DNA of 64,000 nucleotides. It comes from Apostichopus japonicus (Eukaryota > Echinodermata > Holothuroidea > Aspidochirotida > Stichopodidae). A program made the position numbers and the translations under genes. Location of the stretch: NCBI RefSeq assembly GCF_037975245.1, contig NC_092576.1, positions 17,752,111-17,816,110 on the forward strand, given 5' to 3'. The notes under the pieces are model-generated. The model was not told the DNA's origin. It was given only the letters and a program-made list of their open reading frames with translations, and did no database searches. Of the stretch, positions 1 to 33,850 are shown piece by piece; position 1 is the first letter of the stretch; each line of letters opens with the position of its first letter.

Positions 1-949
1 TACTGTACAGTACTGTAGGTGTACAGGTTGTTGTGTACATGGTTTTAACATATACAGTACTGTATCCATGGGTGGTAGTGTGTAACATGGCTTATAAACT
101 TTGCAGTGCATAACTGTACTGTACTACAAACACATACAGTAATGGGACAGTATGTCATGGATAAAGGATGGACACAATGACGTATATAATTGAAACCATA
201 ATTGTTAGGTTAAAGGGGGACGCAAACCAAACCATCAGAAATCGTTCAAGGGTTTGTGGCTCCATAAATTCTCCAGCCAGTCAGTCAGTCATTTAATGTT
301 GTTCTTCCAGAAGTGTTAACGTACAGTACCCACAAATATAAAGCAAACCTACTTTTGTTTCATTTTTAGAATTGTTGAACCATCAGTTTCTCACTCCTAT
401 CTGTAAATTAGTTTGTACACGTCCTAATTAAAAGAGACCAAACCCGTTGGCCTACTGTACCATCGACATTGGTCATGTGATAAAGTAAGCAACAGTATCA
501 TGAGCAACTTCACCATGGAAGCTGAGAAAAAGGAAAAATCTTGTTATATTTAGGATGATCAATCAAAAGGTTCATCTTAATTTTCACACACAAGGTCTGA
601 GACCGGGAGACTTGAGGAGTCTAAATATGACATCATTGAGCCACATGCAGTACTAACTGTTTATAAATATCAAAAACATGTTTATTGTCTGTAAATGACA
701 TCGGCTTGTTTACCCAGTGTTGACTATATTACATATTGAAGCACTTTACAGGACTCATGACCTAATTATTAATTAATGTTGTCATTGGTTATCAGTGTCA
801 GCATAAACATTGTACAGAAAATAAAATATATGAAAATATGAAGAGAACAACAAAGAGAAAATAAAAATAGGCTTCAGATTCTTCCAGAATTTTTGGCAAT
901 CAAATAGCTGCACCTCAGCTGAACGCTAGATCCTAGAGAACTAACTGTG
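1..949. other. AT-rich non-coding stretch
   Basis: I see no exon-like reading frame with splice signals here. Short CTGTACAG/TACAGTA palindromic motifs are scattered through it (for example at the extreme left end), as in the rest of the first 9 kb. Confidence 0.6.
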
Positions 950-2510
950 TCAAGTCTATGACATGATCATCACAGCTGGACACAAAATGGCAGCAGTCCA
1001 CAGACATGACACTTTAAAAACTACTTACAGTATGATACTGTTTAGTATATCCGAAACCAGAACGATATTTTTCTTAGCTGCTTGAGAGAGTTGTTATGAT
1101 TATTATTAATATTATTATTAACTATGTATTTGATAAGAGTGCTCTACAAAAGATCACAGTGCTTTACAGAGTTGTTCTAAGTCGCAAAGATATATATCTG
1201 TCAATGAATATCAGACGACATGAATCTATGACATTATCATGACAGCTGGACACAAAATGGCAGCAGTCCACAGACATGACACTTTAAAACTACTCACAGT
1301 AGGATACTGTTAAGTATCTCCAAAACCAGAACATGATTTTTCTTAGCTGCTTGAGAGAGTTGTTATGATTATTATTATTATTATTTTTATTACCTGTACT
1401 ATGTATTTGATAGAGCGCTTTACAAAAGATCATAGCGCTTTGCAGAGTTTTACAGAGTTGATCTTCACAGCTGGACATAAAATGGCAGCAGTCCACAGAC
1501 ATGACACTTTAAAAACTACTTACAGTAGGAAACTGTTTAGTATCTCCGAAACCAGAACGATATTTTTCTTAGCTGCTTGATAGAGTTGTTATGATTATTA
1601 TTAATATTATTATTATGTATTTGATAAGAGTGCTCTACAAAAGATCACAGTGCTTTACAGAGTTGTTCTAAGTCGCAAAGATATATATCTGTCAATGAAT
1701 ATCAGACGACATGAATCTATGACATTATCATGACAGCTGGACACAAAATGGCAGCAGTCCACAGACATGACACTTTTAAAACTACTCACAGTAGGATACT
1801 GTTAAGTATCTCCAAAACCAGAACCAGATTTCTCTTAGCTGCTTGAGAGAGTTATTATTATTATTACTAACTATGTATTTGATAGAGTGCTCTACAAAAG
1901 ATCACAGTGCTTTACAGAGTTGTTCTAAGTCGCAAAGATATATATCTGTCAATGAATATCAGACGACATGAATCTATGACATTATCATGACAGCTGGACA
2001 CAAAATGGCAGCAGTCCACAGACATGACACTTTTAAAACTACTTACAGTAGGATAGTTTAGTATAGATCTCCGAAACCAGAACGAGATTTTTCTTAGCTG
2101 CTTGAGAGAGTTGTTATGATTATTATTATGATTATTATTATTACTATATATTTGATAGAGCGCTCTACAAAAGATCACAGCGCTTTACAGAGTTGAACAT
2201 TCTAAGTCGCAAAGATATACTGTCATGAATATCAGACGACATGAATCTATGACATCATCACAGCTGGACACAAAATGGCAGCAGTCCACAGACATGACAC
2301 TCTAAAAACTGCTTACAGTAGGATACTGTTTAACTGTATCTCCGAAACCAGAACCAGATTTCTCTTAGCTGCTTGAGAGAGTTATTATTATTATTACTAA
2401 CTATGTATTTGATAGAGTGCTCTACAAAAGATCACAGTGCTTTACAGAGTTTTACAGAGTTGTTCTTCACAAAGATATGTACAGTATATCTGTCATGAAT
2501 ATCAGACAAA
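950..2510. repeat. Tandem array, ~225-270 bp unit, six copies
   Basis: The block AGCTGGACACAAAATGGCAG (one base differs in the third copy) recurs at about 974, 1244, 1468, 1735, 1992 and 2262, giving spacings of 270, 224, 267, 257 and 270 bp. Each unit carries a TTA-rich microsatellite followed by a GCGCTCTACAAAAG / GCGCTTTACAGAG segment, a type of motif common in dispersed repeats of marine invertebrates. The short open frames inside (about 70-88 aa on both strands) repeat with the unit and are not genes. Confidence 0.9.
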
Positions 2511-5064
2511 GATGATTGTGTGTCTACTTTAACTATATCAGGAATTCAAATTGAATGATTGCATTCTATTTTAGTGAATATAAGTGGTATACATGTACAT
2601 ATATTCTAGTGTTTTTTGAACACTGTAAGTGTGCCTTGGGCAGAACAATTTTACACAGTAATGTTTATATACTACAAAATTATTTTCAACCCATAAAGGA
2701 TCTAGATCTTTATATCCATTCATTGTACATTGCATTTCTGAAGGTTGGGCACTGTGGGAAATGTTTCTGTTCCTGCATAGACACCACTGTATACATGTAC
2801 AGTATTAGAGCATACAGTACAGTAAGTCTACAATACTTGGTCTTAAGCACAGTGTGCGCAGGCAACAGGTTGTATTGATTCTAAAGGTTTCTCATGTATT
2901 AATAGCAAGTGTCACAGCAGCCATCACAATATTAAAATCAATTAAATAATATTATTTACTGACATAAGGTACTGACATATTGCAGTAGTAATTACTGAAG
3001 TATACATTAGGCATACTGTACAGTTCTCCTGTACTGTACAGTATGTCAGTATTCCACAGGTATCTCAGATTGTCTTTTTTACAGTTTTGTTACCTGGTTC
3101 TTTGGTGTACAGTAGGCAATCAAGTAACCTATATATTGATCAGTCAAGTTCATATGGGGGGGGGGGTGTGTGTTAGTGTATGTGTTGCCTAGCTCTATCA
3201 ACTAGAGGACTTATGTTCTGGTACACACCTTCGCTTTGAGGACATAATTTGGTGTGTGACCGTCAACTTGAGGACGTCCTCAAATTGTGAAAATTGGGGA
3301 ATGGACTCAAAGTGACCTCAGAAAGCTCCTGTATCAGTATGGGGGATGTCCTCATATTGTCACCATCATACACACATTTGGCTGAACTGTGTGTATGGTA
3401 GAAAACCCTGTTACGAAGAGCGCCCTCCTATGTCCTCGAATTGATGTCCTCGAATTGAGGTCCTCGAATTGATGTCCTCAAGTTGAAGTACAGTATATAT
3501 ATATACATCCTGAAATTGTCACTTCATGAAACTGTGTACTGTATGCATTGTCTTTGAATTGGCTGTCGTATTTTTCCTCAGTAATATTATCATAAGAGGA
3601 GTTCTTTCAAACTATAGTAGTCTACATGTATTTTAATATTTCACATTTAGCTTTACAGGATTTTCAAGAACAAGACTTCTTTTTCCTTTTCTGTATCAGT
3701 GGTTAAAAAAGTGATTGCTTCTTGCAAAACCAGTCGCCATGTCTTTAACCATACAGTACGACCATTATATTTGGTATTCGGGAATAATATTTAAGTCTGA
3801 GTTTTCTCATAGACTCTAGCATTGCTGCACAAACTAACCGATCTGATGTTATCAATATATCGTCAAGTCGTTTACGATATGCCGTTTATTATCAGGGCTG
3901 CAGCTTAACCTCATGGTTCCTGTGTGAGATTCATGATACAAGAACTTCCATTTTTCATAAGGATTTGTCAAATTTATGAGTGAATATTCTTGTTTGTGAT
4001 AATTAGTCATACCATTATTATTTGTTTAGATGTAGTCTTAGCTGCAGATAAGTACTAGACAATAAGTTAAGGGTAGTTTATTAATTAACAATTTTAGTAA
4101 CAGGAACTTTCCCTGTTTTCGACTCGTTAAAGTCATATACAGTATGTGCTATTTGATTAGCTGTAGTCCTGTTGGCCAGTTGCCAAAAAACTTAAGTGCA
4201 AACGTTAGAAATATTGATTTTCTGTTAACTTTCTACCATTTTCATTGCTAACGGCCATAGAGACCTTCAACATGACTAGCGATTTTTGTTTCCACAAAGT
4301 TTGGCGAATTATTAAGCCATATATACTGTAGCTCCAGATCGAGATACAATTATTGTGCGTGTATATGTGTCTGTGTGTATGTGACGCCCTAGATATACAG
4401 TATGCATGATATCTCAATACATTACCTCTGTAGAACCCTTATGTTTGCATGTTCCACATATAATGAGTACAAGAACCCTATTGTTTTTTACCTTTGTTTT
4501 TTACAGCAATTTGGCAGGAAAAAATTGGCAGGAAAAAAATGTAGTTGTAATGGAAACAAAAACATTCATTTGGAAAATCAAAAGATACGTATATGTTAGA
4601 CTACTGTATGAATGGTGACGGTTTAAAACTGCTGTTACTGTACAGTAGGTGAAAAAAAGGCCCTTAATTAGCTGCAGGAATTTACCTGTGGAAAAGACAA
4701 GGTGTAATGTACAGTATATGTACAGTGGATTTGAAGGCGGTTGACTATAGGAAGGAAGGGATAAATGGGCGGAGCCAGGGGTGTGTTAACGCAGTGCTAA
4801 AAGATTAACAAGTTTACAACTTAAGAAGAAGGTTGAATGACTAGAATACTCCTGAAGAATAGTGATTATTATTTATTTAAAGAAGAAACATGGATGGGAA
4901 AGTGGAAAGACCGCAAGATACATTTGATACTCAGGACTGGTGTGGTATTACTGTACAGGGCACTGTCATATATACCACCAACAGGAAAGTAACTTAGTAA
5001 GTCTGTAGTCCGATGTAGATCAAGATAGATCAAGATGCAGGATGTAGATCAAGTTAGCCAGTAC
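2511..5064. other. Non-coding stretch with short palindromes and simple repeats
   Basis: No supportable gene. It holds scattered TACTGTACAGTA-type palindromes, a poly-G run near 3157 and a cluster of GTCCTC-AATTG motifs between about 3235 and 3490. An open frame at 2555-2878 (107 codons) has no flanking splice pattern or recognisable family and is probably chance. Confidence 0.5.
3431..3486. repeat. 14-bp minisatellite, four copies
   Basis: Four adjacent 14-bp units of the form TGTCCTCGAATTGA run head to tail, the last one diverged. Related single motifs lie upstream from about 3235. Confidence 0.85.
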
Positions 5065-5068
5065 TTAA

Positions 5069-5433
5069 AGGGTGTGAAGACTCGGGAAAAAAAAAACTGC
5101 TAATGCCGGTTATCTGACCTAGTTTCGAATGAGGTGTAAAAGAAATGTGTAAGACACCACCATCGATCCCAGCAAAAACACACAGCTTGCTACTGTACCA
5201 GCTGTTATTAGACACTAGTGTACAGTCAGTACAAACAGCTGCGGTCAATACCCACAGCACAATGTATAAACGATACAGCGATGGACATCTCAGGTCCAGC
5301 TAAAGATAACAAGTTATCATGTTTCATTACTGTCTGCATTTTGTAGCGACACGAACAAAACGTCACTTGCAAGCAATGGAAAGTTAACTTTTTCAGATGG
5401 CCGCACGCAGTTTTGGGCGAGTCTTTAATGCCT
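5069..5433. mobile_element. TTAA-flanked MITE (365 bp)
   Basis: TTAA lies immediately outside both ends (5065-5068 and 5434-5437). The left end reads AGGGTGTGAAGACTCG. The reverse complement of the right end reads AGGCATTAAAGACTCG, a 12/16 match. A diverged inverted copy lies at 58130-58458, also flanked by TTAA. Size, TTAA target and lack of coding capacity indicate a non-autonomous Kolobok- or piggyBac-type element. Confidence 0.75.
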
Positions 5434-8239
5434 TTAATGGTGCTATGGATACTATACATATACAGTACTGTACAGTACATGTATACAGTGCCACCGTACA
5501 GTACCTAAAACCAACAGCAATATGAATACAATAATACAGAGAAACCATAGCAAAGGCCACACTGACAAAAAAACTGGAGGTCTCCTTGATGTAAAAACCT
5601 CTATGATTAACAATGTCAGATCGACTCTATGTCACTGATAACCTACAATGTATATGCTTGATTACTTATTATTTGATATGTCACTGTGGTTCCCTACATT
5701 GGTACTCATTGCTATGTAATTAGGTAGAGCCTTTCCTGTGTGAATTTTTTTTCCCATTAGTGGAATATTATTAGTAGATGAGTTTCTTCTCTTGAATCTC
5801 TTCTCTGTATACAGTTAGTAGCTCTGTAAATCTTTGTTCTTTTGTCACATTATACGTGAGTTTTATGCAGTCTGATAAAAATTTGTATAAGTACCGACAT
5901 ACAGTACAATACAGTACTTACATGCATGGTGTAACTAATATACGAATTCTCTGTTCGCACGCAGCAGCGCTACGGCATTGATTAATTTTAGTGCAGTGAG
6001 CGTGACTATGCAGTTTCCATGACAACTTACAAGCACATCTCAAAAGGTTCTGCATTAAATAATCAAAGAATAGGGATGACTTTATTGTGTGTTATATTGC
6101 TTACAGAAGTTACATGTAATGTAATATCCATATTTTAAAGCCAAATTGATGCAGTTTTTCAAGGGAAAGCCAGAACCTACTTTAAACAAGGAAAAACAGT
6201 TATGTACCAAATTGATCTTGGGGTTACAGTAGGATGAAAAGGGGAGGGAGGGTTGGGGGAGAGGTAAGACCCCTGTCCACTTTGTGGCTATACCACTGCT
6301 TACTTATCTCCTCACAACCAAGCTTAGTAAGTACTCTATCCTGTCTGGTGTTTATAAATTGCACTTTTACATGAACAATAAATGGCTGACTGCAGTGGAA
6401 ATAATAAAAATTAAACTTGAAAACAGCAAAGACAACTTTTAGCTCTTTAACAGGATTTCAGCCAGTGACGTCAGGATTATGAGCTACAAGCTCAGATACC
6501 AACTGAGCTATTCAGCTATCTTATTGGGTAGCGGTTTTCTTGCCGGGGGTTCAAGATAGAAGCCACAGTACCTTGCGTGTACCTCGTAATGAGTGATTTC
6601 ACCCCATTTTATTTTGATACATGCCTTTAAGCAGCGACTGGGAAGTGATTTCAGGAGAGATTCTGTATATTATCGAGAAAAAACTAAATTGTTAATGTAA
6701 GAGCAATGGAGAATTTGGTCTGACTCATGAATAAGAATTCTGCTGCCCTGACTACTGTACATGTATGGTCAATGCACATGTGTTTATATAATTGAAGATA
6801 TTTAAGGGATAATTCACACACATATGTTGACAATATGTTGACCCACACAGGGTATGTACAGTACTTAATAATATTCTCCCTTATTGCACTCACAGAACTT
6901 CAATAATTATGTTACAGAAAGGGTTGCCACATGGAATGTGAATCAAAGTTTTAAAACTAAATTGTAATTAGGCAGATCGGAGTAAAGAGCTCTATGCATG
7001 CATACAGTTGCGAGATGTTTTTACAGTGGGCCAAAGAAGCTGGTCCAGTATTCCTCTGTTGAAGCTTGGTTCAGATGTGTGGATGTGTGTGTGTGTGGGT
7101 GGGTGCGTGGGTGTATACATATAATGTGTGTTCATTTCAAGGAAATGGTGTACAGCTACACACTTCATGTGCAGTTTGTATCCTTGCCAAGAAGAAATAA
7201 AAATATGAACACCGTTAACCATTGTGGTATATAAATACAGGAATATTGATTTTATGGTGAATTCACTTTGTTTGCTGCAGTCACTGGATCTGCCTATATT
7301 ATAGGTGTTCCCATTGCTTAATATATATGTAGAGCTACAGTAATGAACACTTACAGTATAATATTACATGTGTATGTTAAAACATATGAGTGCACAGTTC
7401 TACTATACTGTACAGATCAATGGGGACACCAGGACAGTACAGTACTGTACTTACAGAGTGTTAAATAGAAAATTGATCATTTAAAACCTACTGCCAGGAT
7501 GTTACTCAAGTGGTTGTTGAGCTTTGTACTGTGTGGGCACTGACACTTAGTATAGCGTGAGTGTACCAGGATCAAGTGTCAGTAGTATGGACTAGTACCA
7601 TCATTTATTTGTTACATGCTATAAAAGGGATGCTAAATGTTAAACAAAGTTTAACAAAAGTACAAATGTGTACATAGTGACCGTCAATGTGTGATTAGTG
7701 AGCTACAGTCCTTGTTTACTGTGTCGCGCCATTGTTCGACCTAATACAGATGCATGCTGGTTACAGATCTCTGAATCACGGTAAAGTGATATATAGGTGT
7801 GAAAGTGCATGCGGTCAGGATTAATTTGCATACGAGAGACCTGGATGGGTTTTGGCTGAACCTTAAACAGTTCCACTTCTGCAGTTTGGCCAAAGGGAAA
7901 CACATTTTAGAAAATGCGGTCAAGGTGCTGAAAGTTCTATATTCTGCCAAGAAAATAATGTCGTTGTTTTTTTTCAGTAAAGCGTGTGCTCGAGTTTACA
8001 GTTTAGCTTTGATTTATGTCCTGTGCTGTGCTGTACTGTACTTGATATTATCAATGTGCTGTATCATTAAGTGAGATGTATGTACAGATAACCTCTTTTC
8101 TTGAACATGCCAATTCCCACTCTCGTCATGCATGTACAGTATATAGGACAATTACGTATAAAGTTCTCTCATTATTAGTAACTCAATTCGTTTGTTAGTT
8201 CTTGAGCGTGCGGTGCTGATGGTGTACAGCACCGTTATA
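5434..8239. other. Non-coding stretch
   Basis: No exon can be supported. Around 6505-6590 there is a tRNA-like remnant: an inverted box-A-like CAACTGAGCTA and a GGGTTCAAGA further on, probably an old SINE. Palindromic TACTGTACAGTA motifs continue to be frequent. Confidence 0.5.
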
Positions 8240-22215: not shown

Positions 22216-22219
22216 TTAA

Positions 22220-22235
22220 AGGACATGTGACACGG
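22220..22235 (+). repeat. Left terminal inverted repeat of the Kolobok element
   Basis: 16 bp, identical to the complement of 33350-33365. With the TTAA and three chance flanking bases, the symmetry extends to 23 bp. Confidence 0.95.
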
Positions 22236-22500
22236 AAAACGAAACTCTACTGAACTCTTTATAACGTACAACAATTATCCCAAATCGACTTCGATGGTTT
22301 TCGACAGAAAAATCCTTCAGATTCAAAATTGGTGAAATATAACCGCTCATATCAGGCCATCGAATGCCAGCTAATTTCGTATTCATTTTTGATGACGTAC
22401 GGTATTGTAGCGCAGAACGTCGATGAAGTTGTCACTTCTGCGCAGTATATTTTACTGGACGAATTCACGCTATTACCAGACATCTTTACCGAAAACAAAC

Positions 22501-24746
22501 ATGACAGTGCCATATTTTCCTCTCAGTATCGAAGTAGAGAGCTCAGATACTGACGAAAGTAGCGAGAATGATGGTGAGAATATCGCCGATCAACAATATT
22601 TACCTGGCGGCGGAGATATCCAGCCTTACATGTACGAGCCAGAAACGGATGATTCCGGTGACGAGAACGATGGCGAGGGCCGTGCTGGAGGAGGAGATGT
22701 ACAAGGCGATGAAGGTAATCGCCAAAGGAATTTGGACTGGTACGTACTCAAATAATGAAGGATACGTGAGTTAGTCGAACATTCACCCCATTCACCAGTA
22801 AATATTTGGGAAATTAAGTGTCCTTTATCACAGTGTCAATATCATTGTTTGCCTTCTGATAAGATTATACTTAGTAATCGAACGCCGCCAGAATGCTTCA
22901 TCATATCGACCCTAAGCGCGATGCCTATTTGGGCCAGTGTACGTTGTAGTTGTACATACTTATTATAGAAAGCGAAAGTTTTCGTAGGCATGTAGCCTAG
23001 GCTAATTTGGACTCAATCGAAGGTTGTTCACTCAATCGTGTAAGTGATCAAGCAGGAATTAGGCAAGCCTGTGGCTGCCAAGGCCTAACATAGTTATGCC
23101 TAACGTTAGTTTAGCTGGCTTAGGTCAGTGACAATATGAATTATATTCTATGACCAAGGCCTACATCAGTGGCTTAGGGTACTGTGATTCAGTCACTTAA
23201 AGGTCTGTTCAATCTGTGGTTAATTGGTAAATAGATAAATGAAGGAAATTATTGTTTTCCCTGTTTGTTTGCCCATCAATTTTACTCATGATAATGAAAC
23301 TGTATCTGTATGCAACATTGAGGGTGAACAGAACCTAGGCTTGAATCCATCACAGTACTACAGTGCAGTAGAATAGCTGTTGCTCTAAGAAAAAGTCTGT
23401 GCCTTATTTTGAAAGGACATTATTAAGTTATTTTCAGTTTTTAATGCATGTCTTGAAAGGCACAAGTTGTTGGAATGATATCGGAATGAGTATTTGTTTA
23501 TGGTCAAGCCAATATGAGCCTGCTTATTCCATTAACATAGATTTTGTACGATTAACTGCTCCAATCGACCATGGTACTAACACATAATCACTAATCAGAC
23601 CACTCTTTTATTTTCTCCTGGTCATCAGAGTGTGGCTTCAATTAGCTGACCAAGCGAATACATGTGGTCTGTTCTTCCTGTTTATCTAATCTTGGGGTAG
23701 TGTCTTAGAGAAATAAACAAGGATGATTTGGGCAGTATAAACTTTCAGTAATATTGAACAGTGCATTCTGTCAGTTACAGGCGTTTTTTTTTAATCAAAG
23801 ATCTCTTACATTCTGAAATTTGGTGGGTTGCACTTGGGCTTTCTTGCAGTGGTTCATGAAATACATGATAGACAGCTAGGGCCCTGTTGAAGTTTCTAAC
23901 TGCCTCAGCATTGTCGTTCACTAATTTATTACTCTATATACAGTGGTCTTTCTTGTGGTTTACTACTACTACTTCAATCTTCTTTCACATAAAGGTGTAC
24001 CTGTGGTCATTGTGCCATAATGACAACTGCGAGGGAATGCAGATGCTGCACTGAAATTGATCAGGTGAAAGTTGTTATGGAAGAAGAATAATGTGTAGGA
24101 TGCATCACAACACATCCTGGATTTCATGCTGTCTGTCTTGACAGGTGGGGATTAAGGACAGCATATTTTGCTTACCGCCAACAGTATGGAGAAAATGCAA
24201 GAGAGAGCAGTTTACATGAGTAAGATTTATGAAAAACTTGCATTGCTTACACGAATTGCCATAGAAATTTAATGTTATTATAATTTTAGAAGCCTTTAAC
24301 TACACGGCACCAGTTTTATGCTGAAATGTACAATAAATAAAATGGAATGGGCAGCACTTGTCATTATTGATCATTGAAGAGAGGTACAACTCATGGACTT
24401 TAATTCATCTGGGTGGCCAGCACTCAATGTCATGCTTAAAGTGTTCCTCCATTTGGCATTTAAACATTGTAACTAGCATTAGATTACAATTCAAACAGAA
24501 CTAATGTATGTTTTCAATACACAGCTTGCAAGTATTGGTACTGAACAAGCTTTTTCTCTCTCTTCTTTTCCTTTCTTTTGTATCTGTAGGAAGTATCGAC
24601 ACGTGGCGTATCGACAACTAGTGAGGTTTTGTTGGCAGTTTTTGGGAAAAGATGTCAGGGTGATCCTCCCAGCATGTGCCGTATTAAAAATTAGAGACAC
24701 TTTTCCATCAGACAACTATGAAGGTTTTAGATTGCCTCGACTGTAA
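22501..24746 (+). pseudogene. P2X7 intracellular-domain-like protein, broken by one stop
   Basis: Three exons join in frame: 22501-22739, 23995-24219 and 24590-24746, with donors GTACGT and GTAAGA. Residues 1-79 are acidic (SSDTDESSEND, ETDDSGDEN). From Trp80 the protein has a cysteine-rich module (WCTCGHC, ECRCC, CVGCITTHPGF, CLDRW) and an Arg/aromatic segment (RYRHVAYRQ, RFCWQFLG, LPACAVLKIRDTFPS). This order matches the cytoplasmic zinc-binding 'ballast' domain of P2X7 receptors, which also occurs as free-standing invertebrate proteins. No P2X channel part is present. A TAA at codon 112 (24089-24091) splits the conserved module; all else is open to the natural stop at 24744. It lies inside the Kolobok element, convergent with the transposase. 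Its role in the element is unknown; an earlier in-frame ATG at 22423 is possible. Confidence 0.82.
24089..24091 (+). other. Premature TAA in the P2X7-like frame
   Basis: It sits between MEEE and the conserved CVGC, in the middle of an otherwise uninterrupted conserved exon. One base change from a Glu, Gln or Lys codon would explain it. Removing it as an intron would delete conserved residues or require a 33-nt intron, so a true nonsense change (or a read error) is the simplest reading. Confidence 0.8.
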
Positions 24747-24760
24747 ATTTGTGTGTAGTA

Positions 24761-24766
24761 AATAAA
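24761..24766 (+). terminator. Poly(A) signal of the P2X7-like gene
   Basis: AATAAA lies 15 bp after the stop codon. Confidence 0.6.
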
Positions 24767-24798
24767 CATAACGGTAAATCAAGAGAAGGTGTGTCTCT

Positions 24799-24804
24799 TT
24801 TATT
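24799..24804 (-). terminator. Candidate poly(A) signal of the transposase gene
   Basis: AATAAA on the minus strand, about 860 bp after the transposase stop. It is the first canonical signal I see and implies a long 3' UTR ending just short of the convergent gene. Confidence 0.35.
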
Positions 24805-25665
24805 AATGAAAATCTTCATTGGTCATCTACTTTAAAGTGCTGATTTTGTATGGTTTTCTAACATTAAAGAAAGCAAGAAAAAAAAAAATCAGTGACAAAA
24901 GAAAGTATGAACTTGGAAGTTGTGATTGTTTACAAATATTTATAACTATTTTTAATTTCACAAAACAATGAGGAATAAATGAGTGCTTAATGTGGCAGTG
25001 TGTGAATATGCATGTGCTTGTGTGAAGCCTCGGTTTTCAATTACTTCAAGAAGTTGAAGAAGTTCTCAAGAAGTAGCTGTAGCTTAAAACAAGGAAAATT
25101 AGAGCTAAAGAAAGACTTACATAACATAACAACTACAAGATTAAAAAATACTTCAAATATTCATTTGACATAAAAACAGACTTAAATGAGGGGTCAGGGT
25201 GAGGAGAATGGGGAAGAGGATATGTCCCCTAATGAACAAGGAGGGTGGCCCATACATTATCCCTGCAATGTTCAGGCTAGATGAAAACATTTTGCCCCCA
25301 TAATAAATTTCACTTCATATAAAAAATGTGTAACAAACTTCACATGGGTCCCATACAGTATGTACCATTGGCAAGCGATAGTACTGATTAACTTAAATAT
25401 AATTTGTAGAAGCAGCATTTGAGCATTTTAAAAAAATGGGTGAAAGTGATCACTATTTAACCTTTCATATAACCCACATCCCCCCCCCCCTTTTGTACCA
25501 TTGGTCAATCATAGTGCTCACCAACTTTCATGATCATACAATACAATCAGTTTTTCTTATTTTTGAAAATATATATAATGTTCAAGTGAATCTGTTCAAG
25601 TATGGTGGTATAGTAACATGGCAGATGGACGGACGGATAGATGGCTAGATTAGTAGAGCTGTATA

Positions 25666-28600
25666 CTAGTTATATCTGCTCTTGTGTTGCTGGACAGCCT
25701 CCTCTTTGTCTGGATGGACATAAGAGCTTGCCAGTGGTGGTGGGGCAGAAGCTTCCTCAAGGTCTCCTATAGTGCTTCTTCCAGCCTTACACAACTGAAG
25801 TAGAGTTGATGTCAGTTTCTCTACATAACCTGCAACCCCAATAAAAAAGAATATTTATTCAAGGGGAAAAAGTAACACTGTGACTTAATGGAAAAATTTG
25901 CCTTTACATAACTTATGAAAGTTGCATTTCACTGCAAGAGGCTGTAGTTGCAGGAAAAAGTATTTACCATAAGTTGCATCGGTAAGGACCTTGGAAACAG
26001 TGGCTTGGCCTTTCTTAAACTTTGGGAACCTCATGGCAAACCTTTCTTTTCCCTCATTTGTGGTGGCTTGTGATCTGCTTGAATTTTCATTAAAATGGAG
26101 AGCAGCAAGCTGTAGTCTGAAATCAAAATTAAAGACTAACATGTGAATCATAAGAATTGAGTATGATTAAATGGCAGGTGTCTAAACACCCCTGCTCATT
26201 GTTTTGCTGAAGTATTTCCCTGGGTATAAATATTATTACTTGTGGAGAATACACTGATAATTGTCAACCCCTTATCTTCACTTTCAAACATTTCTGCTGG
26301 TTTCACAGTAAATGTAAGACTGGGAGTACATTGCTTTTACCAGAGATCATGTTTATAAAGTGGACTTAGGAAAGTGTTAGGTATGAACCATTTTGAAAAT
26401 TAAATATTGATGATGTTACTAATAAAAGACATCCATCTGTTTCCAAATATTTTAAAATTCTTAATGGGTGTTAAGGCTATGCAGCTGGTAAGTGCAATGT
26501 CTACATGAGTTAAACCTTGATGCCTAGAACTGATAAAAGTGGTACAATGTTTACCTGCTGATCATTCCATGGTAGCTGTAGTGGGTATTCTTCGGGGCAA
26601 AGTGTATAACTACACTGTGAAAGCTTTCAACGTTTGAAGTTTGATATGCAGATGACAACTGCATAACGTCTTTCTGCAAACACTTAGCAGTTATCACCTG
26701 TACCATTTTCTCACAAACTTCGGTGCCTGTTCAAAAAAAAAGGGATAGATTTTTAGTGTTGTCGTGGACACCATTTTGCATTTATTGTATATGTATAACC
26801 TTCCAATTTCTCAACGTAAGATTATCAAGAAGAGAGATGGACATCCACCCATGTTATAATAGTTACACCTATACCTAGAACCACTTACTAGGTTGCAGCC
26901 ACTTCTTCTTTCTTCCTGGTACATTTAATTCTCCATGCACACATCTTGGGAAAAGATCACTATCATGCTGGTGCACATCTTGGATGTGATTGGCAACAGA
27001 CAGCCACTTGGCCAACATCACATCACCATCACCGTCAGGTGTAGATGCTGCAACCCAGTAGAGGTGGTTGCTTACACTCTTTGCCCAGGCACCAGCTGCT
27101 GCACAGGTTTTCTTTTTCGCCAGCTTGTCAATTTTCTTACAAGTACCTGCAAAATATAAAGCAGAGTGTAATAAATTGTCCATTGCAGAAAAATCACTTT
27201 GAGGCCAAATTTTACGTAATGAAACAAAACATAGCATTGGTAGTAATCTCATCATGGATGATTACCACAATTTGTTTTATAAGTGATGGTGTAGCAATAG
27301 GAACTTGGGCAAGCTTACAAAAATTCATTGTGTATGTTGGTCACTAAACCAAGACAGAGAGTTGTTGCTGTATTAGCTTAATTGAATTTTGGCAACACCC
27401 GTAATATACCCATTTAAAAAGTGGAATAAATAGACACCTTTTGCTATGTGCCAAACATCATAGCGATGGTCAATCTCACTTTGGTCTTCCCTCATATATT
27501 TTGAAATGGAACGGTGCCTGTCTGTCACAAGAGAGTTGACCTGGAGATTTTGCCCTGCAAAGAACTGCAACCCCCGCTTCAGGCCTTCCAGTTCCATAGC
27601 ATTACTGCTGGAAACTTCATTGCTCTGTAAAAGGGAAAAAATTGCAAGGAATATGAAAGATTTGTTTCTGATTGCCTCATTTCATCAAATGTGAGCAAAA
27701 GACATAGTTGTTTAAGGTACATTTGTAGAATCAATGTAAGTTTATATCTTAAATATCAGTACCTGTACTAATTCTTGGTGAAGAACCATGTTCCAGTCAA
27801 GGTCAACGAAAGTGTAGGACCCATATTTTGCAGAGTGACCTGGGCTGTCACTCCTTCCATCTCCACCAAGGTTCACTGCCATACCGATCTCCTTCAGCCC
27901 CTCAATCATCTCCTCCTGCGACTCCCGCCAAACTCTGCTGATTGTTGGATGCAGCCAGTTCCTCTGATGCCTGTGAAATGTCCGTTTTGTAATGGCAGGA
28001 CAATACATATTTGTAAAGACCCGCAGGGTCTTTGAAGGATTTGATCCTGCAAACAGAATCCCTGCACTCATCATCAGGTTGCCATGGGGAATGTTTCCTA
28101 CTAACGTCTGGCTGTCCCAGAAGGTGATGTTGGCACACTCTTTACACCTCTGCCTGACCCTTATCATGGACCCTATAATGTTCCACACCACTGCCTCCAC
28201 AGTTCCACTGCATGCAGAACATAACTTGAAGAGCAGCAGGAGACAACTCTCCATCACCAAAAATACACGTTCTTTGGTCTCCTCAACATTTGGTTTTCTG
28301 CAGATAAAAAAGTTTTGAAAAGTTTTTTTTTTCAGACTTTCTGGCAAACCATGCACTCATCAGTACATTGGAAGTGTATGCAAAGAACAGTGTCAGGGCT
28401 ATCTATGTTTGGGATTTGGCATGTCCAAAAATTTCAGCTCCCACTCACTGAATTTGCAAAGACCACATTCAAATCACTTATAAACAATTTTATTTGATCA
28501 TTCAGACAGAATTTATATTTTTGAGGATATTTTAGAACAGCCTTTTTTCATCATGAAGGTGTGAAAAATGTCAATCAACAAAACAGGCAAAGTCCTTCAG

Positions 28601-30115
28601 AAAAAAAAAAACAGACCCTAATACTGTTCATCTATGATTTGCCAAAAGAAATGTAATTGGAGGGGAATAAATCTAGTAACAGGAAAACCATTTGCACTTT
28701 GAGAATTGCACACACCACTGTTTCATGAAAACCTTTCATATTACTTTCTTACATTAGAGCAGGCAGGTTTTGTGTGCTTGACCGAACGCATGTAAGGCTG
28801 AATTCTAAAAACCAGCAAGATCTGTTGATAATTATTACCTAACAAAACAACCCATTCATCTGCTCACACTTTTTTTTGGGTCTTTGTCTTCAATTTTCAT
28901 TTTTTCACACTTTGAGAGAGAGGATTGACTACATTGTATTTAATATAGTGAATTGAGTTAACATATATGTCATAAACTGACATGCAAATGTGAGAAAGAA
29001 GGATAATAGTTCTTACACTGGAGATGATCCAGGTCCATGATCACCACTGGGATCAGATGAATGAGAAGAAGGCTCATAAATTGGGCTTGATGGCTGGTTT
29101 GGCTCACTGGATTCTTCACTAAGTTCTGATGGTGGCTTTGTAGGGCTAACTGATAATGGAGTGGTTGGCTTGGGGGTAGCTGGCTTAGGAGTAGCTGGCT
29201 TTGGAAACTCCTCAGATGTGTGTCTGAACTCTAGTGGTGGCAGTGGGACAAAAGCACACTGAACGTATGCCTCAACATACTCTGAACGGTCTGTCTGGGT
29301 ATCTGTTCAAAAAATTGAAGGTTGAGATTTATGTACATTGCAAAATGTTTCTTACCTAACTAGACAATAATTTGCACTTACAGGGTTTGACAAACACATG
29401 GCTGCATTGGTTTTTCTTCTGTTTAACAGTTTTAGCAATGTAGTTTAGAAATCCTCAATGTCAATGTCTAATTAATGACATGAATACAACCTTGGGTCTA
29501 TTTCAAATGTCTTAACTGTCAAGCAACATGAAGTCATGTACACACCATATATGAAGTCAATCTCACATTTATTCGCTAAAACCTGCAAATCATTACCATA
29601 GAGCATATTCACAACAAAACCAATAGGGCCCACCATTGTGTCAAGTAGTATTTCAACCAACCCAAAGTTCTATAGATTCTGTGTGAATGAACCAAATTCA
29701 GGCATAAATTTCTCGGGCCCCACCCCTCATATTTAATCAGCAAAATGAAATCTGGCACTGAAAATCTTCAATTCAAACCAACCCACTGTTCTTGACATTT
29801 ACTTACATCAACACACATGTTATCTTGAGTAAATAGTACTTGAGCAAAGGAACCAAAAACTATACAGACAACAATCATCAATAGGGCATGGGCAGAGGTG
29901 ATATATTACCTTTAGACAAAAATGCAGTCTCCACGGCCAACTCATCTCTGACCTCAACGTTGACAGTATCCCTTGGTGCCACAACAATACTACTTTCACC
30001 CTAGAGATGCAAATGATAGATAAATCACTGATGAAACATTGCTCATGACTCCATTCAGTTCTTAGATATTCTGTATTTTGTGTCTATGAACACTTACATA
30101 TTATGCACACAATAA

Positions 30116-30166
<51 letters not shown>

Positions 30167-30178
30167 ATGAAACAATAA

Positions 30179-30247
<69 letters not shown>

Positions 30248-32933
30248 ATGAAATGCTATATATTCAGTGAAAATATCTGACAAAAGTGTTTTCACTAAGT
30301 AGCAAACAATACATGACTGATGAAAGTTGCATTGTTTCTGTATGCAGATTAACTCTCTCCTCTACTACACTCAACTATTCTATTATCAAGGTGACATGTT
30401 AATTTGACCCATAGATCAAAACCATTCATGACAGACTTAGCTTCCAATTCTTGCCACAACAACTAAGATGCAAGATTTATCATTAATTAGAGATTTTTCA
30501 AATTCAACACACCTATTGGAAGCAACATTTACAATACTTTTTAACTGTCATTTATGTAAGTATGACTGCAACAGAAATTTATATTGTTAAAAGAATAATT
30601 AGAAAAAAACTCACCTCTGATGATGCAATATCCATCATCAATGGTGTTGATTCCAGATGAGAGGCTTTCTTTCTTTTTATTAATTCGCGCACTGTTGGGA
30701 GTGGTTGTGCTCGAACAGACGATGGTTTTTCTGATAAACTGCTACCCCCTGCAGCTTCAAGGGTCTTCATGGTAAAGAAAAAGAACATTATTTATTAAAA
30801 TCCAATGAAGCAAGACGCAACGTACCAACATCTTAGTGATTTTCCACACATAGAAAAAGACACTCAACTCTTTCCCTACTCAATAACCCTCTTGAACTAA
30901 AATTCCCATTGCCTCATGCGAGCAACATTGTTCTGTTAAATGAAGAAAAGAAAAGAAATCTATATATGGCAATTGACACGTACAGATCATGTCTCTTTGA
31001 GTCAGGCTATTGCCAATATTTTGCCTTTAATAGCATATAAGCAACTTGCAAGTAGATACAAAAATTATTACAACAAGCAAACTGAACACAAAAATCGCTT
31101 TGAAAAATATTTGTGCCTCTGTTGTCATTTTATTCTGTTTTCTGACTGAAATCAACCCCTTTATGTGTTTGACTTCTGGTATAGAAATGAGCCCAAAAAA
31201 CTGATGCTGGCCTTAAACTGACAGCCTATGAATTCAATTGAAGGCTATCAATCGAAAATCAATCATATTTCAGCCTTCAAAGCCTTTTTCAATACAGGGT
31301 ACTAGCAGAATACTGTACATGTCATGGCATGTAAGTAAACTTTTGTTCTGTTGTAAGCTTTTGCATCTTGCTTATATTGTTGCAAATTTAGCAGATTTAT
31401 TCCTTGCAATTTACATTATCTATCGACATGACGACAAGCCCTGTCAGAATGGCCACCTTGCTAGGCCTACAGCTCAGGTTTTGGGTAGAGTGGATACTTC
31501 ACAACCTATGACTTACCCTCTATTGCCATTATATATAATCAGTTTACCACTACAAATTTACCTTGTGACAAATACATGTACGAACCAGCTGGAAATTGCT
31601 GACATCTCACAGATTTTGCTAAATTTTATAGGCTGTGGCTATTCTTACGACTAGTCGTCATAATTATTTATAAATTATTCTTATGACATCGGCGAATTCA
31701 AAGTAAATAAAGCAACTGCGCATGTAGTAGGGGTAACCCTAACTCTAACCCTCAATCCAACCCTAACCGGAAATTATTGTTACACCTGGTCATGAAAATA
31801 GTACTCCTAGTCTTAAAAGTAGCCACGTTATAGCAACTGTGCATGCGCAAAAGGGAATTATTGTCCCAACGAGTCGTAAGAATAGCCACTTTGAATTTTA
31901 TATACTGTTGGAGCCCAGCAATAGGCCTTAATCATTTTCTTAGCTACAGAAACAGATTGAAATGCTAATAGGTGGCTGCTGGAGTGCACTCTCTGTCAAT
32001 ACTCATTATTGGAAAATCCTAAATGTGTAAAATGAGCTCTATGAACCCACCGTGCTATCCTTTGGTCTCAATAAATAATGAGTTACTCACAGCACTGCAC
32101 GAAACTGTTATGTTAGGTTAGTGTAACTAGGGAAGAACAGTAGGCCCTATTCTCACACTTTTAAAACAATCCATTGTAGGCCTAGGCCATATGCCAAATA
32201 CCTTCCACCTCACAATGTAGGCTCAGCAACATCACTTCATTTCTACATAAATGATCAAGTTGAGGCTAACGCTTTCATATCCTACACCCAACATTAGGAT
32301 AGGACATGTACATAGTAAAAATATGATCATGAGAAGATACCTTGCTCAGTGATAGCTTGGACTAGGCCTATGTTACTAAATCATCATAAATGGGGTAATG
32401 ATTTGAAAGGTGGAAAACCAGCAAAGAGTTTAGTCTAGGCCTAGTCTGAATGCACTCACCCTAGCATGTTCTCTTTTCCTGAAAGCTCCACCGATCTTTC
32501 GTTTCTTCACGACCGTTTCGGCCACGAAAGAGACCGGCCCAGGGGTGGACATGGCACTGCCGCTTGGCTTGCTAGTATTACTGCCAGAACTGCTAACATC
32601 TGGCCTATCCATCGGGCTGCTTCCTTCCTGTTGCCTTGGCCTAGCCTTGCTTCCAAACAAAGTTGGCACAGCATCGTCCTTCAGCCTTCGAAGTTTATGT
32701 GGCGAAAGTCCAAATTCTGAAAACCTACTCCCCACAAATTCTTTGAAACACGTCTCATCGAAGTGTGCACTGCACAAAAACGAATAAGCAGTGGGCTGAA
32801 GCCAGTCTTTGCGGGTGTTTCTCACGGCATTTACCCAAAGTTTCCGAACGGGTTCTCTTTTGGGGAATCCATGAAGACTCACGCCGTCTTTACTGGAGTT
32901 GCTGCATCCGCCAGCGATACAAAATTTTCCCAT
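25666..32933 (-). CDS. THAP-domain DDE transposase (Kolobok type)
   Basis: Ten minus-strand exons join in frame: 32933-32460, 30764-30615, 30000-29910, 29302-29017, 28297-27763, 27624-27438, 27146-26889, 26726-26555, 26116-25968 and 25829-25666. Phases agree at every junction and the sum is exactly 822 codons (821 aa plus TAG). Residues 1-93 are a THAP zinc finger (Cys5, Cys10, Cys54, His57; Pro24, Trp33; AVPTLF box at 88-93), the DNA-binding domain that recognises transposon ends. Residues 160-330 are a Pro/Ser-rich linker. The RNase H-like core has GGDGRSDSPG (Asp480), VTDRH (Asp547), DVWH (His571) and NVESFHS (Glu694), the likely DDE triad, plus a CKEC pair. It should cut and join DNA at TTAA in the nucleus. 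No lesion is visible, so it may be active. The exon starting at 30764 has the weakest acceptor. Confidence 0.88.
26555..26726 (-). other. Transposase exon 8: likely catalytic Glu
   Basis: It holds QTSNVESFHSVVIHFAPK. The Glu is the best candidate for the third acidic residue of the DDE triad. Acceptor TTGAACAG, donor GTAAAC. Confidence 0.75.
27438..27624 (-). other. Transposase exon 6: second catalytic Asp
   Basis: It holds ELEGLKRGLQFF, LVTDRHRSI (second Asp) and YDVWHIAK. Acceptor TTTTACAG, donor GTGTCT. Confidence 0.85.
27763..28297 (-). other. Transposase exon 5: first catalytic Asp
   Basis: About 178 codons. It holds RCKECANITFW, MMSAGILFAGSNPSK and FHRHQRNWLHPTI, then GGDGRSDSPGHSAKYGSY with the first expected DDE aspartate. 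Acceptor TATCTGCAG, donor GTACTG. Confidence 0.85.
29017..29302 (-). other. Transposase exon 4: Pro/Ser/Thr-rich linker
   Basis: It contains three PKPxTP repeats (PATPKPATPKPTTP) and SSEPNQPSSP runs, a disordered spacer between the DNA-binding and catalytic parts. Acceptor TTGAACAG, donor GTAAGA. Confidence 0.75.
30120..30244. repeat. Two (TA)n tracts in a duplicated frame
   Basis: Two pure TA runs (about 44 and 62 bp) are each preceded by AATAAAACAA and followed by TTGTATGAAA, so the microsatellite and its flanks were duplicated together. They lie in a transposase intron. Confidence 0.9.
31635..31889. mobile_element. Small inverted-repeat element nested in the Kolobok intron
   Basis: GTGGCTATTCTTACGACT at the left end is repeated in inverted orientation at the right end (AGTCGTAAGAATAGCCAC), enclosing about 255 bp without coding capacity. 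It also contains a TAACCCTAAC-type telomere-like stretch at 31735-31766. I find no clear target duplication. Confidence 0.65.
32460..32933 (-). other. Transposase exon 1: THAP zinc finger
   Basis: 158 codons from ATG (32933) to a GTGAGT donor. The CIAGGC...CSAHF...AVPTLF layout is the full THAP signature. A Ser/Pro-rich stretch and a basic KKRK patch (possible nuclear signal) follow. Confidence 0.9.
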
Positions 32934-33349
32934 CGTCGGTAACAGCGGTTTAAAATGAAATCACTTTAGCTTTCAGAAACTTATTGAGTAGGGTTAATAG
33001 CCTACAAACTGATGAAATTATAGACAGGCAACTGTAGTAAAACTGAGTATGCTTAGGCCTATGTACAATATTATAATACGTCTCGTACACAAGAATACGT
33101 TTGCGTGTCTACTGTTGTTTTGTTGTTCCTGACCACTGATCTCCTGACGCGTCGCTAGGATATCGTGACTCCATCTCTGTACGTCATCTCATTTGCATAT
33201 TTGTCGCAAATTCAGCCGTTTTGAGAGTTGTGAACGGGACTTAATTAAGCTAATTAGAAAGCAGTAAGAGATGTTTTTCGTCCGAAATGATTCATAAACT
33301 TATATTATCATCCAAAGAATCACTAGTATGAATTTGAGAGGGATCTATA

Positions 33350-33365
33350 CCGTGTCACATGTCCT
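33350..33365 (-). repeat. Right terminal inverted repeat of the Kolobok element
   Basis: 16 bp, the exact complement of the left end, followed by the TTAA target copy at 33366-33369. Confidence 0.95.
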
Positions 33366-33384
33366 TTAAGCACTTTATCTGCTA

Positions 33385-33850
33385 TTGTGTGAATGTTGTA
33401 TGTGACTCACCAGGGACTGATCAGCGAGGATCAACTGTATGTGACGCATGACCAAGTGATCAGTAAAGATCAATTTTGAGTGACTCACCAGGGACTGATC
33501 AGTAAAGATCAATTGTTTGTGACTCATGACCAAGTGATCAGTAGAGATCAATGGTTAGTGATTCACCAGTGACTGATCAGTAAAGATCAGTCGCAAGTGA
33601 CTCATTTTACCCACTGATCTGCACAGATCAATTGTATGTGACTCATTACCGAGTGATCCGCACAGATCAATTGCATGTGACTCATTACTGGTTGATTAGC
33701 ACAGAACAATTTTATGTGACTCATTTTACCCACTGATTAGCAAAGATCAGTCGCAAGTGACTCATTTTACCCACTGATTAGCACAGATCAATTGGATGTG
33801 ACTCATTACTGACTGATCCACACAGATCAATTGCTTTTGACTTTCAGGGA
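33385..33850. repeat. 39-bp satellite, about 12 copies
   Basis: The core TGATCAGTAAAGATCA recurs at 33418, 33457 and 33496 and then more divergently to about 33850, each followed by AATTGTATGTGACTCA-type sequence. TGATC...GATCA in every unit can form a small hairpin. It begins within about 20-50 bp of the Kolobok right end, and scattered relics reach about 34060. Confidence 0.9.

Follow-up and report, generated by a model that had tools for sequence, protein, structure and literature searches.

The window analysed here comprises 64,000 bases of the Apostichopus japonicus genome (G000:C16:17752111-17816110, within 671.6 Mb in 35 contigs), and its positions 22216-33369 constitute a cut-and-paste transposon of the Kolobok type (Kol0 type). 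Two convergent genes are located in this element: the minus strand carries a THAP/DDE transposase gene, the plus strand a three-exon gene whose product resembles the cytoplasmic ballast domain of P2X7. The latter is almost certainly KolX, the regular second gene of Kol0-type Kolobok elements, residing here in a sea cucumber. The features of the element ends and of KolX are listed below by window position.

22216-33369, no strand assigned: whole Kolobok element, 11,154 bp with both TTAA counted, bounded by TTAA and terminal inverted repeats (TIRs)
22216-22235, plus strand: left TTAA and 16-bp TIR, TTAA + AGGACATGTGACACGG
33350-33369, minus strand: right TIR and TTAA, the reverse complement of the left-end TTAA + AGGACATGTGACACGG
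22501-24746, plus strand: KolX gene, three exons, both introns GT-AG, starting 285 bases inside the left end
22501-22739, plus strand: KolX exon 1, acidic N-terminus with the motif PYMYEP
23995-24219, plus strand: KolX exon 2, with WCTCGHC, CC, CITT and a helix, containing an in-frame stop
24089-24091, plus strand: in-frame TAA disrupting the window KolX, downstream of the CC pair and upstream of the CITT motif
24590-24746, plus strand: KolX exon 3, AYRQL...LPACAV..IR...YEGF and stop codon

A search of the window for the left 30 bases of the element, allowing up to 3 mismatches, gave a single occurrence (0 expected). The window copy, like two full-length copies on contig C9, is flanked by TTAA on both sides, and the termini beside TTAA read AG...CT, in agreement with the 5'-RR ... 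YY-3' rule given for Kolobok elements, together with a DDE transposase of C/DxxH signature, in the main text of PMC9587614. The arrangement that characterizes Kol0, KolX beside the transposase, is present in the window element and in other copies. An earlier note, made from the letters of the DNA, had placed the gene within a THAP/DDE transposon and convergent to its transposase, and both statements hold for the TTAA/TIR-bounded unit described here.

For the window gene a spliced reading of 206 amino acids with X placed at the stop was used. It matched the Pfam family PF20478 (P2RX7_C) at an E value of 1.9e-14 (54.4 bits, cut-off 23.5) and P2X7 in the Protein Data Bank (PDB) at E 1.6e-8 (37.6 bits), the two non-P2X7 rows of the PDB search being found at E 0.32; the P2X7-like cysteine module proposed in the earlier note is thereby confirmed by profile. 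P2RX7_C was the sole Pfam match of the reading at E <= 0.1, and a P2X channel domain was not found at that threshold. The closest protein was P0001 of Apostichopus japonicus (99% match), an uninterrupted protein of the window type with 68 bits against P2RX7_C and 40.2 bits (E 2.5e-9) against P2X7 in the PDB. The seven zinc-coordinating cysteine positions of the P2X7 ballast (WCxCxxC, CC, CIT and C572) can all be read in both sequences. Upstream of these cysteines, the pattern [PG]Yx[FY]E[PQ] was found in 20 of the 21 KolX proteins with at least 40 residues in that part, out of 37 KolX members in alignment A1. Judged from sequence and from the model of its structure, the KolX ballast domain is homologous to the P2X7 tail, with a similar predicted fold. 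Because of the in-frame TAA at 24089-24091, the window copy encodes no whole KolX protein and would therefore need KolX supplied from elsewhere; the earlier note had rightly given the gene its own exons (three, with GT-AG introns) and had overlooked this stop.

Copies of the family were collected genome-wide by the left-end pattern, a census that overlooks copies without that end and outside which stand the A. japonicus proteins P0003, P0007, P0014, P0016 and P0027 of the window's type (type I), which were not placed in the genome. The pattern was found at nine genomic places including the window, and the eight others were compared with it. All three KolX exons are present at six of the nine places, in four cases without a stop in KolX. 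Two copies on C9 (10667453-10678562 and 10700488-10711579) are of full length, have the same ends as the window copy, are 99.1-99.8% identical to it with the masked repeat excluded, and contain three KolX and ten transposase exons, all stop-free. Three stop-free KolX exons are also retained in two shortened copies, on C21 (9467113-9458050) and on C17 (15666829-15661121), both with transposase exons alongside, one of those on C17 containing a stop, and the KolX splice sites of these four copies are the same as those of the window. A further C17 copy (from 25116844) has KolX with a stop and transposase exons alongside, and at C16:29725468 and C16:30787382 exon 1 is the sole KolX exon retained. 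The nine places correspond to about seven insertions: the right flanks of the C9 pair match each other (97.7% over 1000 bases), and a flank of 12 bases is common to both exon-1 remnants. The window and C9 copies are near identical while the compared flanks differ, which points to recent movement of the element.

The earlier note had thus correctly supposed that the gene is a standing part of the element family, since other copies, too, have KolX next to their transposase. The reading in which a single transposon copy picked up a P2X7-like host gene as passenger cargo, in an isolated capture, would suit the single copy first observed and nothing beyond it; given three KolX exons at six of nine places with the element's left end, at several separate insertion sites, and the publication of KolX as a standing gene of Kol0 (PMC9587614, main text), its probability is negligible, and this candidate was rejected because other copies carry KolX beside the transposase.

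Both the equation of KolX with the P2X7 ballast and a transposon source of the P2X7 tail were published in 2022. According to the main text of Kojima & Bao 2022 (PMC9587614), the Kolobok elements of the Kol0 lineage carry genes for a transposase and for KolX, the latter resembling P2X7 476-595. The same text derives P2X7 from a P2X4-like gene that fused with KolX and interprets Nanor as a KolX that was likely domesticated; its single mention of Apostichopus japonicus is as host of the KolobokP lineage. Rump et al. 2020 (PMC7016195) described the ballast domain across animals, and in the main text of that paper a transposon link is absent and the string 'transpos' has 0 occurrences. A literature search for a link between P2X7 and Kolobok or for the sea-cucumber family found nothing on either beyond PMC9587614, Repbase reports, which may list the family, lying outside its scope; one review mentions both P2X7 and Kolobok, but in separate places. 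The observation made in the earlier note is sound and its main lines were correctly read, and the system is one already described. The term 'cargo' has to be dropped for a gene known as the regular second gene of Kol0, and the suggested route from transposon to P2X gene agrees with the proposal in the main text of PMC9587614 and so is not new. Among the compared sequences, another protein scores better than that of the window as kin of the P2X7 tail. New relative to that main text are a well-preserved sea-cucumber family and a second, convergent and better-scoring ballast gene (type II), located in an element with a clean empty site.

The transposase gene was modelled on the minus strand as follows.

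32460-32933, minus strand: transposase exon 1, THAP domain (PF05485, E 2.9e-17)
25666-30764, minus strand: transposase exons 2-10, DDE catalytic region (splice model)
30764-30615, 30000-29910, 29302-29017, 28297-27763, minus strand: transposase exons 2-5
27624-27438, 27146-26889, 26726-26555, 26116-25968, 25829-25666, minus strand: transposase exons 6-10

The ten exons run from 32933 down to 25666 and encode 821 amino acids without a stop, the model being the best of 6 open GT-AG models ranked by a simple custom splice score. Relatives of the transposase numbered 213 at E <= 1e-3 among 7988 candidates scored. In the Pfam scan, the Mutator model PF20700 remained under its cut-off (23.2 bits against 26.5), and no Kolobok-named model was among the matches. 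A DDE signature of the C/DxxH type can be read by eye in the model (GDGRSDSPG, VTDRH, DVWH, NVESFH), as can NHIQDVHQH...CVHG, spotted by eye alone, a candidate for the zinc finger that Kolobok transposases have between C/DxxH and the last E. A long (AT)n tract occupies window positions 30117-30250 in a transposase intron, and the surrounding stretch varies in length in the C9 copies.

On another chromosome, a second Kolobok-like element, G000:C17:25122537-25135347, splits the C17 copy of the window family that starts at 25116844; the ends of the inserted element consist of TTAA and an inverted repeat with 34 of 36 bases alike. The features concerned are the following.

27699-27738 of the window (TTAA 27712-27715), no strand assigned: empty site of the second element, intact in the window
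C17:25128331-25129571, plus strand: Kolobok-like DDE of the second element, in several frames; may be broken
C17:25132490-25131957, minus strand: type II ballast protein of the second element, convergent to the DDE

Comparison of the empty site in the window, ...GTTGTTTAAGGTACA..., with C17, ...GTTGTTTAA / insert / TTAAGGTACA..., reveals a clean TTAA duplication. The type II ballast protein scored 112 bits against P2RX7_C and 74 bits (E 1e-19) against P2X7 in the PDB; a match to a THAP domain was not seen within the nested element. A second, degenerate type II pair was located at G000:C16:29718387-29722748, where a ballast fragment is convergent to a Kolobok-like DDE that shares 47% identity with the nested one across 149 columns. 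The DDE pieces of both loci are 28-35% identical to the window transposase, and they stood alone on one side of a branch (Shimodaira-Hasegawa-like approximate likelihood-ratio test, SH-aLRT, 99) in a quickly built tree whose 34 rows were 31 of 120 listed relatives, the window and the two second-type DDEs, both of which were under half filled. Just inside the right end of the nested element, a Cys-rich basic exon (G000:C17:25135005-25134796, minus strand) reads CRCRSTC...CPCKVDEKSCGVSCRCGSNRKPC followed by a GTGAGT donor, and a Pfam search with it gave no match at E <= 1. We take it to resemble a CXC/tesmin DNA-binding motif, and it may be exon 1 of a type II KolX, though a stop is found just upstream in that copy.

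The origin of the P2X7 tail was approached with mammal-like P2X7 rows alone. A ballast tree of 34 rows covered 24 of the 39 type I proteins together with 3 of type II and 7 of P2X7. In it, type I formed one side of a branch supported at 100/100 and P2X7 stood among type II; by sequence the P2X7 tail is outside type I in the sampled rows. Its best-scoring kin among the compared sequences is the protein of the second element and not that of the window. A profile search with the P2X7 tail and the type II piece returned 19 proteins, 18 of them P2X7 fragments 73-87% identical to the rat tail and one the type II-like P0178. That the tail derives from a type II Kolobok-like lineage, and not from the window's type, comes close to an even chance without reaching it. 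The scores given above argue for such a derivation (74 bits for type II against 37.6 for the window reading and 40.2 for P0001 in the PDB search, and 112 against 54 and 68 for P2RX7_C), as do the comparison with the rat tail, in which type II reached 81 and 75 bits and the best type I protein 62, and the residues SCC/ACC common to type II and P2X7 where type I has CA. However, identity to the rat tail scarcely distinguishes the types, being 30-35% in the three type II rows and 25-33% in type I, and one type I match of 48 columns reaches 42%; there are three type II rows in all, one degenerate and one truncated, and the truncated row scores 53 bits against the rat tail, no better than P0001. 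Moreover, the type I branch at 100/100 does not alone place P2X7 with type II. A tree that keeps type II as its own clade was not rejected by the approximately unbiased (AU) test (p-AU 0.394), so that P2X7 may branch off between type I and type II.

In established families, THAP domains are DNA-binding and DDE transposases carry out cutting and joining. The THAP transposase of the element would thus bind the transposon ends and cut and join at TTAA, while KolX would be a nuclear accessory protein of transposition, with the zinc-held ballast fold as its working module and the acidic PYxFEP-bearing N-terminus as a docking segment. The ballast is likely the working part since it is common to type I and type II while the N-termini seem to differ (acidic PYxFEP in type I, perhaps the Cys-rich basic exon in type II). 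By analogy, KolX probably has an accessory role in transposition, and the overall explanation, that KolX of a Kol0-type Kolobok acts as an accessory transposition protein, is considered likely. The gene could instead serve the element outside transposition chemistry, by regulating the transposase or by manipulating the host (chromatin, repair, nucleotide sensing). This rather unlikely alternative is favoured by KolX being a separate gene with an acidic N-terminus, and we know of no contact of the P2X7 ballast with DNA. The P2X7 ballast binds zinc and guanosine diphosphate (GDP) according to Rump 2020 (PMC7016195, main text), which would also suit it, but the pairing with a convergent transposase recurs in the second, distant Kolobok-like element and fits a direct partner somewhat better, without being decisive.

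A nucleotide-based role was weighed on the same ground. The P-element transposase (THAP + DDE) requires guanosine triphosphate (GTP) for end pairing and joining, as stated in the main text of PMC7776569, and KolX might, by analogy with the GTP-binding domain within that transposase, provide a guanine-nucleotide cofactor function in trans. In rat P2X7 the GDP contacts are R546, H547, R574, R578 and K583 (PMC7016195, main text), and the corresponding columns of alignment A1 were matched by hand to rat numbering. The position of R546 is Arg in 35 of 37 KolX (1 Ser, 1 gap) and that of R578 in 33 (2 gaps, 1 Gln, 1 Pro), and the neighbouring Y550 is retained in 36 of 37 (1 gap); H547 is kept in part, with His in 22 and Tyr in 12. 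Since the P2X7 GDP site is partly conserved in KolX, a guanine-nucleotide role is testable, but with the R574 and K583 positions lost the cofactor function in trans is doubtful, and guanine-nucleotide binding as a part of the accessory role would be similarly unlikely. A wider proposal would make the ballast a convergent partner of two or more Kolobok-like transposase lineages that are deeply separate, derive the P2X7 tail from type II and explain its GDP site as left over from a transposition cofactor that depended on nucleotide; as a whole it appears improbable.

Several observations weigh against the explanation of KolX as an accessory protein of transposition. We know of no test of KolX function. 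The position of R574 is Val in 31 of 37 KolX and that of K583 is Lys in 1 of 37. The predicted KolX structure is of middling confidence (mean predicted local distance difference test score, pLDDT, 55.8; ballast blocks 54-80), and a Foldseek search with it gave no row at E 0.001. The copy at C16:29777900 is without element positions 97-5692 and hence without KolX. Between the two C17 copies, KolX differs with a synonymous divergence (dS) of 0.057 and a non-synonymous divergence (dN) of 0.045, and the dN/dS values of KolX and transposase rest on tiny substitution counts. The other comparisons gave 3 synonymous and 0 non-synonymous substitutions for KolX between C9 and C21, dS 0.041 and dN 0.017 for KolX between C9 and C17 (15666829), and dS 0.029 and dN 0.010 for the transposase between C9 and C21; these counts suit weak constraint on KolX and transposase without proving it.

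Compared with known systems, the window gene is like KolX of Kol0 as presented in the main text of PMC9587614 in accompanying, as a second gene, the DDE transposase of a TTAA Kolobok and in its similarity to P2X7 476-595 including the zinc cysteines; the sea-cucumber family differs from the named Kol0 elements in that it is not called Kol0 in that main text. With the P2X7 ballast (P2RX7_C), the window KolX shares the predicted fold, the seven zinc cysteines in the reading and some of the GDP-contact residues. Unlike P2X7, KolX has no channel-domain match, its N-terminus being the acidic PYxFEP one; an additional invariant Cys (VCL) is preserved in type I, in which Ala follows C572 where P2X7 has a second Cys. 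The stand-alone ZCD/NANOR-like proteins in the main text of PMC7016195 are short, come from invertebrates and fish and share the cysteine motif but, unlike KolX, are described as host genes with 'ancestral synteny'. Fig. 6 of that paper has two markers neighbouring ballast genes in animals ranging from sponge to sea urchin, and these markers could be a transposon's own genes. The window transposase combines THAP with an RNase-H-type DDE as do the P-element and THAP9 transposases, whereas these are, in the main text of PMC7776569, single proteins with a built-in GTP-binding domain and an 8-bp target duplication.

The present results support, from another genome, that the P2X7-specific cytoplasmic domain belongs to a transposon gene family, and draw attention to another transposon lineage whose match to the P2X7 tail scores higher. 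Transposition assays could thereby test directly where a drug-target domain came from and what its zinc and GDP sites are used for.

Further observations concern the surroundings of the copies. An isolated ballast-like fragment at G000:C16:29768682-29768819, matching pieces of either type at 44-47%, lies about 3.5 kb from the window-family copy without KolX. Also on C16, a THAP-like stretch (32%) and second-type DDE fragments, at 29712266-29711943 and 29715615-29715417, are perhaps another old Kolobok. Inside the second element, frames at G000:C17:25126659-25127256 resemble by eye a reverse transcriptase of the non-LTR (long terminal repeat) type. In the window, a 39-bp tandem repeat array of 11.3 copies (33396-33842) is situated immediately beyond the right end of the element.
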